This document shows positions 1,996 through 5,821 of a stretch of DNA of 5,950 nt, in pieces. The stretch's first letter is position 1; every line of letters starts with the position of its first letter. The notes under the pieces are model-generated. The model worked only from the letters and a program-made list of their open reading frames with translations. It had not been told where the DNA came from and did not search any database. This DNA comes from Candidatus Bathyarchaeum sp. GTDB taxonomy: Archaea; Thermoproteota; Bathyarchaeia; Bathyarchaeales; Bathyarchaeaceae. A program made the position numbers and the translations under genes. Where the stretch lies: assembly GCA_003096255.1 (NCBI GenBank), contig PIXS01000013.1, positions 1 to 5,950 of the forward strand. The letters are read 5' to 3'.

Positions 1996-3270
1996 ATGGT
2001 GAAGTTATCAATCGGCGACATTGACTGCTACTATGGTTCCACTAAGATTCTGGAGGATATCGATTTTGCAGTTAAGAGTGGCGAATTCTTGGGAATTCTG
2101 GGTCCTAACGGCTCAGGAAAAACTACATTACTAAAAAGCATCAGCAGAATACTCGAACCTAAGAAAGGAGCAATTCTCATCGACGCATCTAACATCTATG
2201 ACATGAAAACCGTGGACGTCGCAAAACAGTTAGCAGTAGTACCCCAGACAACACCCGTAACATTCGACTTCACCGCATTAGAAGTTGTTCTGATGGGACG
2301 CAATCCTCACTTGGCTCGGTTCGCCATGGAAAGCAAAGAAGACTTGGCTATCGCAAAGAACTCCATGCAATTAACCAACACTTGGCATCTTGCTAAGCGT
2401 CCTGTAACCGAACTTAGTGGCGGTGAAAGGCAACGAGTAATAATAGCTCGGGCGTTAACTCAGGAACCCAAAATTCTTTTGTTAGACGAACCGACAACCC
2501 ACTTGGACATAAGCAACCAACTGGAAATAATGGACCTCATAAAAGAGCTATGCAAAACCAAAAAGTTGTTGATTGTCGCAGTTTTCCACGACTTCAACCT
2601 AGCTGCACGATACTGTAACTCCTTCATTCTTCTGAAGGATGGAAAAATTGTTGCAGTCGGGAAATCTGATGACACTCTCACAAGCGAAAACATCAAGAAA
2701 GTTTTCAACGTAGATACCCTCGTGAAACGGCACCCCATCACAGGGACTCTCCATGTTATTCCAATTTCTAGACCATTAAATCTGAAACCAAGAAGCCTTC
2801 CTGTGCACCTGATTTGCGGATGTGGAACAGGCAGCCCCATAATGAAGCTTCTGCTGGATGAAGGCTACAATGTAACTGCCGGTGTTCTCAACCTGTTAGA
2901 CACTGACCAAGAGACTGCCCAGTTGCTTTCGGTTCCCACAGCTACTGAGGCTCCGTTCTCCCCCATAACCCAAGATGCTCATGAAGCAAACTTGAGATAC
3001 CTGAAAAAAGCCAAGGTTGTTGTGATAACTCCGACCCAGTTCGGTGACGGCAACCTACGTAACCTTGAGGCTGCAGAAACCGCCCTCGACGAAGGAATCC
3101 CCGTGGTTCTCATGGACGATGGACCCATGGAAGAGCGTGACTTCACCAAAGGCAAAGCCACAAAAGCCCTAACCAAACTCAAAGACAAAGGCGCCATAAC
3201 TGTGAAGAACAACAGTGAGCTCCTAGAGTTTCTTGATAACCTAGAAACCAAAAACAACAAAGCACATTGA
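1996..3270 (+). CDS. BtuD-type ABC transporter ATP-binding protein with an extra C-terminal domain
   Basis: This is the cytoplasmic ATPase that powers the importer. Residues 1-255 form a complete ABC nucleotide-binding domain: Walker A GPNGSGKT (36-43), Q-loop Q84, signature LSGGERQ (140-146), Walker B ILLLDEP with catalytic E165 (160-166), D-loop HLD (169-171) and switch H198 in VFHDFNLA. The VVLMGRNPH stretch (97-105) is typical of the FepC/BtuD subgroup. At 424 residues the protein is about 150-170 longer than a plain BtuD. The extension (about 268-418) starts with a hydrophobic strand followed by GCGTG (275-279), a GxGxG-like glycine pattern as in Rossmann-type folds. It continues with AGVLNLLDTDQE, EAPFSPIT, KAKVVVITPTQFGDGNLRNLEAA, and GIPVVLMDD with a later RDFTKGKA. 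I recall similar extensions on ATPases of this group in other archaea and anaerobic bacteria, but know no assigned function. All ATPase motifs are intact, so the protein should be active. Confidence 0.94.
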   Translation: MVKLSIGDIDCYYGSTKILEDIDFAVKSGEFLGILGPNGSGKTTLLKSISRILEPKKGAILIDASNIYDMKTVDVAKQLAVVPQTTPVTFDFTALEVVLMGRNPHLARFAMESKEDLAIAKNSMQLTNTWHLAKRPVTELSGGERQRVIIARALTQEPKILLLDEPTTHLDISNQLEIMDLIKELCKTKKLLIVAVFHDFNLAARYCNSFILLKDGKIVAVGKSDDTLTSENIKKVFNVDTLVKRHPITGTLHVIPISRPLNLKPRSLPVHLICGCGTGSPIMKLLLDEGYNVTAGVLNLLDTDQETAQLLSVPTATEAPFSPITQDAHEANLRYLKKAKVVVITPTQFGDGNLRNLEAAETALDEGIPVVLMDDGPMEERDFTKGKATKALTKLKDKGAITVKNNSELLEFLDNLETKNNKAH

Positions 3271-3311: not shown

Positions 3312-3339
3312 CTTTGTTTGACTCTTGAATAGTGCTTGT

Positions 3340-3344
3340 GGTGA
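3340..3344 (+). promoter_or_regulatory. Shine-Dalgarno sequence that selects TTG 3350 as start of radical SAM gene 1
   Basis: GGTGA lies 5 nt before TTG 3350 and complements the archaeal 16S rRNA end. The upstream in-frame GTG codons (3332, 3338, 3341) lie before or over this site and have no such motif at a workable distance. Confidence 0.6.
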
Positions 3345-3349
3345 CGGTT

Positions 3350-4426
3350 TTGAGACAAAAAGGACCCCTATTCATTCTGCCATGGAGATGCACACAAGCC
3401 TGCACCAGCAGTTGTCTGCATTGCGGCTTTGCATCAACCCCTCCAGCCCCAGATGCCCTCTCTACAGAGGAAGTCATGAAGCTTGTGGACGAAATCTACG
3501 ATTTTGGAGCAACCTACCTTGGATTAGGTGGCGGAGAAACCCTTCTGCGAAAAGACCTCCCCGAAATAATCGGCTACGCAAAGAACATCGGCTTGAATGT
3601 GAGCCTAATAACCAACGGCTATTACATTGACGGCAAAATCTTTGACAGCCTAGTTAAAAATAACGTTCGCGTCTCGTTGAGCGTTGACGGAGCCGAACCA
3701 ATCAACGATGCCATCAGAGGAAAGGGCGCATACGCAAAAGCTGTTTCAGCAATGGAAAAAACTTCCAAAGCTGGGCTGCTTGACTGTCTTGTGGCAACTC
3801 TGGCAAATGTTGACGAGACCCGCAACAACGTTAACTCCGAAGATATGGAGCATGTAATCAAGTTGGCTGAAGAGTATGGTGCCCGATGGGTGGTGATTCA
3901 CGGCTTCATTCCCTTCAACCGGACAAAAGAGCATCTTGCCCGAGCTCCTTCTCCTCAGCAGTATGAAAAGATTTGGAACGAAGTCTATGATTTGCGGCTG
4001 AAATATTACGGAAAACCTGAAGTCAACGTTTACTGTCCCTTCTTCGCTCGTATAGCAAAAGAACGGAACATGCCAGACTTCAATCGATGGTACAGCAGCT
4101 TTTTCCTTGGCAAATGCACCCTCGCAGGCAAATACATGAGCGTAATCGAAAACGGCGACGCCATCCCCTGCAGCTTCAATGACCGCATCCGACTGGGAAA
4201 TATCCAGAAAAAGCCACTGAAGCAAATCTGGGATGAACTGCAGAATTCCGAACTAACCCGTAAACTCCGCGACCGCAGGAATTTGAAGGGTAAGTGTGGT
4301 GTTTGTGAGTATCGGGAGATTTGTGGTGGCTGCCGAACCCGCGCAGAAATCTACACAGGAGACATATTCGCTTCTGACCCAGCATGCGCTTACGTACCTA
4401 AACTCTTGCGCAAAAAATCTCAGTAA
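3350..4426 (+). CDS. Radical SAM/SPASM domain protein 1 (AhbD/NirJ/MftC-like)
   Basis: This is a radical S-adenosylmethionine enzyme: one [4Fe-4S] cluster cleaves SAM, and a C-terminal SPASM domain binds auxiliary Fe-S clusters. The radical SAM triad CX3CX2C is C18, C22 and C25, with a further cysteine at C14. The SAM-contacting GGE motif (61-63) is followed by T64 where proline is usual. VSLITNGYYI and LSVDG follow in family order. SPASM cysteines are C256 and C274 (in NGDAIPC), then C316, C319, C325, C328 and C346. The ending LKGKCGVCEYREICGGCR, with GD and DPAC further on, is shared by the haem-pathway AhbD/NirJ enzymes and by peptide maturases such as MftC. Substrate cannot be chosen from sequence: tetrapyrrole or peptide modification both fit. 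I chose TTG 3350, giving 358 residues; a GTG at 3332 would add six. With TTG the protein aligns without gaps from residue 1 to the tandem paralogue through the GGE motif. Stop TAA 4424-4426. Confidence 0.9.
   Translation: MRQKGPLFILPWRCTQACTSSCLHCGFASTPPAPDALSTEEVMKLVDEIYDFGATYLGLGGGETLLRKDLPEIIGYAKNIGLNVSLITNGYYIDGKIFDSLVKNNVRVSLSVDGAEPINDAIRGKGAYAKAVSAMEKTSKAGLLDCLVATLANVDETRNNVNSEDMEHVIKLAEEYGARWVVIHGFIPFNRTKEHLARAPSPQQYEKIWNEVYDLRLKYYGKPEVNVYCPFFARIAKERNMPDFNRWYSSFFLGKCTLAGKYMSVIENGDAIPCSFNDRIRLGNIQKKPLKQIWDELQNSELTRKLRDRRNLKGKCGVCEYREICGGCRTRAEIYTGDIFASDPACAYVPKLLRKKSQ
4265..4341 (+). repeat. 77-bp exact direct repeat, copy 1, within radical SAM gene 1
   Basis: It is identical base for base to 5666-5742, 1401 bp downstream and in the same codon frame. 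It encodes LRDRRNLKGKCGVCEYREICGGCRT and so covers four SPASM cysteines. Both flanks differ at many synonymous and non-synonymous positions. One mismatch (4342 against 5743) separates a further 8 identical bases. Confidence 0.97.
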
Positions 4427-4457
4427 CTTTCTCCATTTTTGGCGAAATTTTGCTGTT
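4427..4457 (+). terminator. T-rich tract after radical SAM gene 1
   Basis: The sequence after the stop carries short T runs (CTTTCTCC, T5 at 4436-4440, then AAATTTTG). This is the kind of oligo-T signal that terminates archaeal transcription. No strong hairpin precedes it. Confidence 0.3.
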
Positions 4458-4500
4458 CAACCCTTAGTCAAGAAAATTTGACTAAACTATCCGAGGGTTG
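4458..4500. repeat. 43-bp bulged palindrome (operator or 3'-UTR hairpin candidate)
   Basis: The outer arms CAACCCT (4458-4464) and AGGGTTG (4494-4500) are perfectly complementary. Inside, TAGTCAA (4465-4471) pairs perfectly with TTGACTA (4478-4484) across GAAAAT, with nine unpaired bases (4485-4493) on one side. GTCAAGAAA occurs at 4467-4475 and again at 4501-4509. No T-run follows, so a terminator is unlikely. It sits just upstream of the TATA box of the next unit, where an operator for a dimeric regulator would be expected. Confidence 0.5.
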
Positions 4501-4520
4501 GTCAAGAAACCTTTACAAAA

Positions 4521-4536
4521 ATCCTTTTATTAAAAA
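4521..4536 (+). promoter_or_regulatory. TATA box with upstream A-rich BRE-like bases, before the structured leader
   Basis: TTTTATTAA (4525-4533) follows CAAAAATCC and is the best archaeal TATA box in the gap. Transcription starting 25 nt from its centre would begin near 4554, within one base of the outer stem of the predicted RNA structure. That agreement supports both the promoter and the RNA. Confidence 0.5.
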
Positions 4537-4552
4537 CTCAACCCGTAAACAA

Positions 4553-4713
4553 TTGTTGGAGCCTCCAACATAATTAACCGAACCCTGTTATGTTGGCGAA
4601 TCCTCTCCAGAATCAATTCCCAACCGCGGAACTTAAGCTCAATATTGCTCCCGCGCTGGCGCACAAATGTAGCAGCTGGCTAGCTATTGGTTAACCCACC
4701 GGGGCTCCAACAA
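4553..4713 (+). ncRNA. Candidate structured leader RNA or ncRNA with alternative pairings
   Basis: A perfect 11-bp stem, TTGTTGGAGCC (4553-4563) with GGCTCCAACAA (4703-4713), closes a 161-nt region. Immediately inside is a perfect 9-bp hairpin, CCAACATAA (4565-4573) with TTATGTTGG (4588-4596), with a 14-nt loop. Loop bases TTAACC (4574-4579) complement GGTTAA (4689-4694), a possible pseudoknot. Further short stems are CGCGG/CCGCG (4625-4629/4651-4655) and TAGC/GCTA (4670-4673/4679-4682). The first strand can instead pair locally (TGTTGGA/TCCAACA, 4554-4560/4564-4570), which would free TGTTGG (4591-4596) to pair with CCAACA (4707-4712). Such mutually exclusive pairings are typical of regulatory leaders. 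It lies 5' of radical SAM gene 2 and may control it. I recognise no known RNA family; the fold is a hand prediction. Confidence 0.5.
4590..4694 (+). CDS. Possible 34-residue peptide ORF between the radical SAM genes (doubtful)
   Basis: An ATG at 4590 opens 34 codons ending in TAA (4692-4694). The peptide has a mildly polar first half (MLANPLQNQFPTAELK) and ends in HKCSSWLAIG, with one cysteine. Short peptides beside SPASM radical SAM enzymes can be their substrates, which is the reason to list it. Against it, there is no ribosome-binding site, GCG codons are unusually frequent compared with the neighbouring genes, an open stretch of this size arises readily by chance, and it lies entirely inside the predicted RNA structure. 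The RNA reading is preferred. Confidence 0.15.
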   Translation: MLANPLQNQFPTAELKLNIAPALAHKCSSWLAIG

Positions 4714-4718
4714 CAAAA

Positions 4719-4748
4719 AATCCCCCATCCGATTGTGCCTGAGGGATT
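4719..4748 (+). promoter_or_regulatory. Small hairpin just upstream of the ribosome-binding site of radical SAM gene 2
   Basis: AATCCC (4719-4724) is complementary to GGGATT (4743-4748) across an 18-nt loop, ending 8 nt before the GGAG ribosome site at 4756-4759. It could be the expression-platform part of the preceding leader RNA. A 6-bp stem with this loop is weak on its own. Confidence 0.3.
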
Positions 4749-4755
4749 GAGCAAA

Positions 4756-4760
4756 GGAGA
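4756..4760 (+). promoter_or_regulatory. Ribosome-binding site of radical SAM gene 2
   Basis: GGAGA lies 11 nt before GTG 4772, within a purine-rich stretch. An in-frame TGA at 4748-4750 and the absence of any other in-frame start make GTG 4772 the only upstream choice. Confidence 0.6.
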
Positions 4761-4771
4761 GTGGAAAGAAA

Positions 4772-5821
4772 GTGAATGAACGACCGCTCTTATACATGAT
4801 GACTTGGAGATGTACAAGGGCCTGTAACTATAACTGTTTACATTGTAGCTTTGCTTCTAATCCATATGCCATTAACGAGATTGACACCAAAGGCGGAATG
4901 AAGATTGTTGACGAACTTTATGAGCTTGGGGCAAAGTGGTTTGGCTTAAGCGGCGGAGAACCCCTTGTACGAAAAGACGTTTTTGACATAATTGAACACG
5001 CGAAGAGCCTTGGCATGAACGTGAGCCTCATAACAAACGGCTACTACGTCAAAGGAAAAATTCTCGATAAATTGGCTCGAAACGAGGTTATGACCGCAGT
5101 CAGTCTTGAGGGAAAAGAAAAAACAAACGACCTTACCCGCGGCAAAGGCTCCTACCAGACAGCCCTCAAGGCCATGGAGAACCTGTCTAAGAACGGAATT
5201 TTTGATTGCATCGTAACAACCCTAAGCAAAAACAACTGCTCAGAAGTGGGTCATATTGTCGAGCTTGGGCGCAAATACAACGCCACAAGAGTCGTCTATC
5301 ACAACTACATCCCTGTTGGCAGGGCTCAAGAGCATCTGGACATGGCGCCTACCCAACAGCAGTACGAAGTCGTCTTTAACAGAATCTACGACATGATGCA
5401 AGAAAACAAAGGAAAACTCGGCATCAACGTATACTCCCCATTCTTCGCTCGCATCGCAAAGGAGCGGGGCATGCCCGACTTCGATTACTGGTTCGACAAC
5501 GTGTTTCTTGGTCAATGCTTCATAGGCGGCAGATACATGGGACTTCTCGAAAACGGCGACATCAGACCCTGCGGCTTCAACGAAGGCTACCGCATGGGCA
5601 ACATCAGAGACAAATCCATGAAAGAAATCTGGACCAACATGCAAGACTCCTCTTTCACCAGCAAGCTCCGCGACCGCAGGAATTTGAAGGGTAAGTGTGG
5701 TGTTTGTGAGTATCGGGAGATTTGTGGTGGCTGCCGAACCCGAGCAGAAATGTACACCGGAGACCTGTTTGCCTCTGACCCCGCCTGCGCTTATGTGCCT
5801 AAAATTTTGCGCGAAAGATAG
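4772..5821 (+). CDS. Radical SAM/SPASM domain protein 2 (AhbD/NirJ/MftC-like), tandem paralogue
   Basis: This second radical SAM enzyme (349 residues) has the same architecture as its upstream neighbour. The triad is C18, C22 and C25, with C14 also conserved. The SAM motif is canonical GGEP (61-64). The strand that reads LSVDG in the neighbour reads VSLEG here. SPASM cysteines are C249, C267, C309, C312, C318, C321 and C339, a full set of seven for auxiliary clusters. It lacks a seven-residue segment present in protein 1 near its residues 160-170. The shared block VY(C/S)PFFARIAKER and the matching C-termini show an old tandem duplication. The divergence of the rest suggests two different jobs, for example successive steps or two substrates. 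Start GTG 4772 is fixed by an upstream in-frame stop. The gene has its own TATA box and a leader of about 220 nt with predicted structure, unlike protein 1. The product is cytoplasmic, with no signal or membrane segment seen. Confidence 0.92.
   Translation: MNERPLLYMMTWRCTRACNYNCLHCSFASNPYAINEIDTKGGMKIVDELYELGAKWFGLSGGEPLVRKDVFDIIEHAKSLGMNVSLITNGYYVKGKILDKLARNEVMTAVSLEGKEKTNDLTRGKGSYQTALKAMENLSKNGIFDCIVTTLSKNNCSEVGHIVELGRKYNATRVVYHNYIPVGRAQEHLDMAPTQQQYEVVFNRIYDMMQENKGKLGINVYSPFFARIAKERGMPDFDYWFDNVFLGQCFIGGRYMGLLENGDIRPCGFNEGYRMGNIRDKSMKEIWTNMQDSSFTSKLRDRRNLKGKCGVCEYREICGGCRTRAEMYTGDLFASDPACAYVPKILRER
5666..5742 (+). repeat. 77-bp exact direct repeat, copy 2, within radical SAM gene 2
   Basis: This is the partner of 4265-4341, encoding residues 299-323 and two bases of codon 324. 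Within the tract many codons end in T (GGT, TGT, GTT, TAT, ATT), whereas the surrounding codons of this gene mostly end in C. This suggests a tract of different origin copied into one or both genes. Confidence 0.97.

Follow-up and report, generated by a model that had tools for sequence, protein, structure and literature searches.

Structured 5' leaders that hide a ribosome-binding site form a general class of RNA elements, and two further architectures lie close to the one described here: riboswitches, whose closing helix P1 joins the 5' end of the RNA to a strand close to the domain's 3' end and whose conserved part is the interior, and trp-type attenuators, which combine four mutually exclusive segments with a leader peptide. 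To our knowledge, few structured 5' leaders have been described in archaea; a narrow literature search found no papers on archaeal riboswitches, and its sole match for Bathyarchaeia together with riboswitches concerns Culexarchaeia.

The leader candidate analysed here, made of segments A to D (Table 1), shares something with each of these systems. As in the masking leaders, a downstream strand is complementary to a ribosome-binding site and exclusive helices are possible in the window (the whole stretch of 5,950 nucleotides that was analysed); here, however, the putatively masked site is that of a promoter-proximal start and cannot clearly be assigned to the enzyme gene, and the element has no ligand domain. 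As in riboswitches with a closing P1, the 5' end pairs near the 3' end of the domain, whereas the interior, conserved in riboswitches, is the least conserved part (31 of 117 ungapped columns identical between the window and genomes G003 and G012), varies in length and has no Rfam match. The likeness to trp-type attenuators lies in the four segments with exclusive pairings in the window, but there is no coding-constrained leader peptide, B and C are not kept in relatives and C:D carries no weight. The explanation that we favour, and to which we give an even chance of being right, is an untranslated leader derived from a captured promoter, in which D would mask that promoter's own ribosome-binding site.

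The window carries BtuF/BtuC/BtuD-like transporter parts and two radical SAM/SPASM genes, and the gap between the latter (4427-4771) houses the four segments. For both radical SAM genes the top NCBIfam score is that of the heme b synthase AhbD (195 and 205 bits; cut-off 500). These two otherwise diverged genes share 77 identical bases (4265-4341 and 5666-5742), an identity that looks like recent gene conversion. Positions 1996-3270 encode a BtuD-like ATPase with a C-terminal extension, residues 3-354 of which score 324 bits with PRK09536, a model of corrinoid ABC ATPases whose cut-off, at 537, is not reached.

A contig scan detected gene 2 relatives at eight loci, all from Candidatus Bathyarchaeum or Bathyarchaeota, and homologous gaps are present in six further genomes of the same archaeal family, where gene 2 relatives about 80% identical lie behind the same promoter: G003 (L005, L049), G012 (L048), G002 (L003, L053), G001 (L004, L054), G010 (L055) and G009 (L056). 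Six gaps, related and not independent, were compared, namely those of the window, G003 and G012 (the first group below) and of G002, G010 and G009 (the second group); G001 was omitted as a near-copy of G002. Gene 2 copies with different upstream sequence (L001, L002, L007, L008 and L047) were excluded, one of which (L008, in G005) shows 97% identity over 70 residues up to the end of its contig. Apart from these excluded copies, gene 2 matches elsewhere in the order are at most 58% identical among the matches listed.

Table 1. Features of the radical SAM gap and its surroundings (window coordinates)
Feature	Position	Strand	Remarks
Radical SAM/SPASM gene 1	3332-4426		
Upstream operator-like palindrome TTAGTCAAGAAAATTTGACTAA	4464..4485	+	Similar stretches in the genomes of five relatives
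Promoter module GTCAAGAAACCTTTACAAAAATCCTTTTA (second operator copy and TATA region)	4501..4529	+	Pattern match with 0 mismatches
TATA-like box TTTTATTA	4525..4532	+	First base 28 nt before A begins
Segment A	4553..4563	+	Contains GGAG (4558-4561), probably the ribosome-binding site typical of this promoter class
Segment B	4564..4573	+	ATA (4570-4572) in place of the ATG of the five compared relatives
Variable interior	4574..4702	+	Holds C and the TTAACC/GGTTAA inner helix
Segment C	4588..4596	+	9 bp with B in the window
Segment D	4703..4713	+	11-bp complement of A, closing the domain
Radical SAM/SPASM gene 2, downstream of the leader	4772..5821	+	349 aa; Pfam PF04055, PF13186

A sequence-only reading of this DNA had described the four segments, and their complementarity proved exact, as did that of the loop TTAACC (4574-4579) to GGTTAA at 4689-4694, an inner helix seen in the window only among the compared gaps. 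Dinucleotide shuffles of the gap 4427-4771 yielded a perfect inverted repeat of at least 11 at any distance in 4 of 200 cases, and one of at least 9 with a loop of up to 20 in 8 of 200, so that each helix by itself is only modestly unusual. The 161-nt stretch 4553-4713 folds with a z of -3.27 on the plus strand (1 of 200 shuffles as good or better) and of -2.32 on the minus strand (3 of 200).

Comparison of the gaps reveals that the best downstream partner of A is D in all six. The A:D stem spans 11 bp in the window and 9 bp in G012 and G003; in the second group it forms 9 of 10 pairs as an inward-shifted stem (GGCGCCCCAT/ATGGGGCACC) with one C.A mismatch. Out of 500 shuffles, the pairing was matched by 1 in the window, 16 in G002, 16 in G010, 13 in G009, 51 in G012 and 86 in G003, the last two values meaning that A:D in G012 and G003 is not significant alone. 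Every tiled control segment, each having less downstream sequence than A, was beaten by A:D (15 segments in the window, 15 in G003, 13 in G012 and 10 each in G002, G010 and G009). In the alignment of the first group, the A core is identical in 9 of 9 columns and the D core in 8 of 8; outside these two segments no conserved run reaches 3 columns, so that the conserved core of a riboswitch is not seen.

The sequence-only reading had proposed to look for conserved or covarying pairs among homologous gaps, and the outcome is divided: a conserved A:D stem is there, but covarying pairs within it are not, no compensatory change in A:D having been found within either three-sequence group. The A:D pairs are kept through sequence identity; identical letters can have another cause, and selection may act on A independently of its pairing. 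In the first group D complements A including GGAG in 3 of 3 sequences, which is the arrangement expected of a masked ribosome-binding site; in the second group GGAG reads GGCG and the shifted stem remains. The six-gap alignments A1 and A2 left the D segments of the two groups apart and an L-INS-i run joined them, while of two covariance models R1 missed G003 and G012 and R2 missed G001, G002, G009 and G010. That the stems of both groups are the same element would be a matter of complementarity and of place (equally far from TATA and directly ahead of the gene) rather than of shared letters.

The four segments had also been read as an exclusive switch, and here the comparison speaks against the earlier proposal: the homologous gaps preserve neither A:B nor B:C, C:D carries no weight and no covarying pair was found in A:D. 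The 6 bp of C:D are real as letters, but a leader model of 4553-4771 predicts them with a probability of 0.0, against mean pair probabilities of 0.93 (A:D), 0.22 (B:C) and 0.0007 (A:B); the free minimum of this model includes A:D, and the state combining A:B and C:D lies 12.3 kcal/mol above the one with A:D. A:B is strong only in the window (7-8 bp) and in G003 (6 bp); when the three genomes are aligned, two of its pairs are wobbles and two are missing in G012, one is missing in G003, and by eye A:B is reduced to TGG/CCA in G002 and G009, the G009 minimum omitting even this. Out of 500 shuffles, 2 equalled the hairpin in the 40-nt stretch after A in the window and none did so in G002, as opposed to 193 in G003, 422 in G012, 133 in G010 and 188 in G009, and G010 loses the strong G002 hairpin through two base differences. 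B:C has fewer pairs in G003 and G012 than in the window and is no better there than in shuffles.

A true two-state switch, in which A:B or B:C would form first and A:D later, a signal deciding between them and thereby setting gene 2 expression, draws on the window itself. A growing-chain model, computed on the window sequence alone, gives A:B up to 4587, mainly B:C at 4602-4677, a mixture of both at 4692-4707 and A:D from 4722, and the end states have nearly equal energies (-60.2 for the A:D minimum versus -59.6 for the B:C state without A:D). Two B:C pairs are moreover changed on both sides in the three-row alignment; 200 of 500 shuffles, however, reach as many and 115 of 500 reach the covariation score, in a set of sequences that is small for such counts. 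Given the decay of A:B in G012, G003, G002 and G009, the shuffle-like hairpin after A in four relatives, the weightless C:D and an interior that is not conserved as an aptamer would be, we regard this switch as decidedly unlikely. Unlikely, too, is a lineage-specific leader behind a promoter controlled by a transcription factor which, on the folding model, would pass from A:B through B:C to A:D and set the expression of a heme-type radical SAM enzyme without a conserved aptamer.

The domain enclosed by A and D varies between 118 and 170 nt from stem to stem (161 in the window) and contains open reading frames of 27 (G012), 60 (G003), 45 (G002 type) and 52 aa (G009), those of G003 and G012 having no similarity by eye. 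Among the reading frames after A in the second group, synonymous and non-synonymous codon differences number 0 and 4 between G002 and G010, 2 and 14 between G002 and G009, and 1 and 14 between G010 and G009, the G002/G009 changes falling on the three codon positions as 7/5/7; no coding constraint was detected in these three genomes. A promoter-proximal ATG is kept in the five relatives and missing from the window, which together with these codon differences argues against a leader peptide. Since the interior is unconserved and without coding constraint where testable, both an aptamer and a leader peptide are unsupported. That the stretch between A and D encodes a small protein, or a peptide on which the radical SAM enzyme acts, was likewise considered; the idea was rejected for G002, G010 and G009, where coding constraint is absent.

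The TATA-like box lies where the sequence-only reading had placed it for a start at the foot of A, and the usual archaeal spacing between TATA and start fits such a position, so that transcription probably begins near 4550-4556. The promoter is one of a class: the module pattern GTCAAGAWNNNTTNACNAAAANNNTTTTA has 86 matches with at most 2 mismatches in six related genomes (25 in G001, 18 in G003, 16 in G004, 9 in G005, 17 in G009 and a single one in G012, which is the radical SAM promoter) and its reversed control has none. The layout of the class (window 4464-4532; L113-L193) is a GTCAAGA..palindrome followed by TTTTA. Bacterial-type signals sought in 4427-4790 amounted to one sigma-70-like site (0.4 expected by chance) and one minus-strand terminator-like site at 4570-4554, which is the A:B hairpin (again 0.4 expected); neither was counted as evidence.

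By raw count, TTGG.G follows the TATA start in 13 of the 87 promoter sites collected, the window's own included, at a distance of 27 nt in seven sites, 28 nt in one and 31 nt in five; three of the five 31-nt sites are the leaders of the window, G003 and G012. TTGGTG or TTGGAG occurs in 5' leaders such as those of L124, L129, L120, L140, L151 and the window (4556-4561). TTGG.G in the leaders of this class is likely a ribosome-binding site. Complementary arms in several 5' leaders of the class prompted the idea of a regulon-wide hairpin directly before start codons, of which A:B would be one instance; this was rejected: once 21 sites without a fitting ORF (start 30-63 nt after TATA) and 5 leader loci were excluded from the 87, 4 of 61 non-leader sites had a shuffle rank of at most 0.05, where about 3 are expected. 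Two genomes have similar small membrane-type ORFs downstream of promoters of this class, at L010 1557-1764 (G004, 63 aa) and at L142 (G003, 56 aa), both of the form MNK...LGYC; the former has an exact A:B palindrome ahead of its ATG.

The company kept by this promoter class also bears on the possibility that the locus is the captured 5' end of a gene for a secreted protein whose body has decayed, the RNA structure being functionless and D a leftover or a chance complement. Many class sites precede ORFs that by eye resemble signal-peptide proteins, G004 has 17 letters identical to those of the window (TGTTGGAGCCTCCAACA) ahead of its 63-aa membrane-type ORF, the ATG has become ATA in the window and the interior changes freely. 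D is nevertheless a second conserved block, complementary to A in all six gaps, for which decay alone is insufficient, and we consider this origin without function unlikely.

A leader or small-RNA candidate with its own archaeal promoter upstream of gene 2, as had been proposed, gains from the comparison, since relatives carry the candidate at the corresponding position and A:D recurs in all six gaps. In G012 the gene follows promoter and leader and the next gene upstream is divergent, and a search of the window for four TATA-like strings between D and the gene found none, both of which favour a leader. In the second group a run of seven Ts follows D and, by eye, a TATA-like string precedes the gene (TTAAATATA in G002 and G010, TTTAATATG in G009), which hints at a separate short RNA. 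To judge from these signals, the element may be a leader in some species and a separate short RNA in others.

That it is a free-standing small RNA which has a promoter of its own, terminates at the A:D stem and acts elsewhere seems rather unlikely to us. Besides the T-run and the TATA-like box of the second group, the folds of G002 (z -5.34) and G009 (z -3.55), each better than 200 of 200 shuffles, agree with it; the window, G003 and G012, however, have no T-run after D, D pairs with other leaders of the class (G001, G009, G003) no better than shuffles do, and covariance models found no strong second copy in 162 genomes. D as a trans-acting seed against ribosome-binding sites of the class was rejected: with 24 sites compared in G001, 16 in G009 and 17 in G003, those with a shuffle rank of at most 0.05 numbered 0-1, 0-1 and 1, respectively.

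The earlier impression that no RNA family is recognisable here was borne out by the Rfam search that the sequence-only reading had suggested. Rfam 15 gave a single weak match in the whole window at E up to 1, located elsewhere (3866-3919), and three matches in 4500-4780 at E up to 10, all far under their gathering scores and none of them to 5S. The idea of a 5S rRNA with an insert, raised by a short look-alike at 4616-4640, was discarded on this absence of a 5S match at E 10, and no look-alike stretch was seen in the homologous gaps. R1 and R2, run with stricter filters against 162 genomes of the order, returned respectively their own four loci (G001, G002, G009, G010) plus 4 matches with E of 0.01-0.09, and G003 and G012 plus 7 matches with E of 0.004-0.09; a weak match in G004 is the leader of the 63-aa ORF, and neither model found strong additional copies of the element. 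The pattern GTTGGAGCC, 100-130 nt, GGCTCCAAC occurs in the same genomes in G012 and at one place in G131.

In the untranslated leader that we favour, the transcript of this genome would start at the operator-bearing archaeal promoter and read into radical SAM gene 2, with 4553-4713 as its untranslated 5' part. A would carry the ribosome-binding site of the promoter class, and D, about 140 nt downstream, would pair with A, close the domain and hide GGAG; ribosomes would thereby be kept off the promoter-proximal start (ATA in the window), the leader would stay untranslated and translation would begin at gene 2's own site near 4756-4772. In G002, G010 and G009 the stem-closed unit ends in the T-run, to be followed by the TATA-like box and the gene, and is perhaps a separate short RNA. 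From the start of transcription to the read-through, the masking and its purpose, this sequence of events is one that we infer. Control of gene 2 by the stem is not claimed, the effect of A:D on the predicted openness of the gene's ribosome-binding site being small or inconsistent: with A:D forced and with D blocked, respectively, it is 0.18 and 0.05 in the window, 0.29 and 0.30 in G003, 0.34 and 0.27 in G012, 0.78 and 0.28 in G002, and 0.23 and 0.05 in G009.

If the stem does decide where ribosomes start, this locus would show how a captured promoter can be adapted to serve a new gene. For its part, the promoter class with its operators is a candidate regulon in a widespread class of archaea of which there are hardly any cultures.
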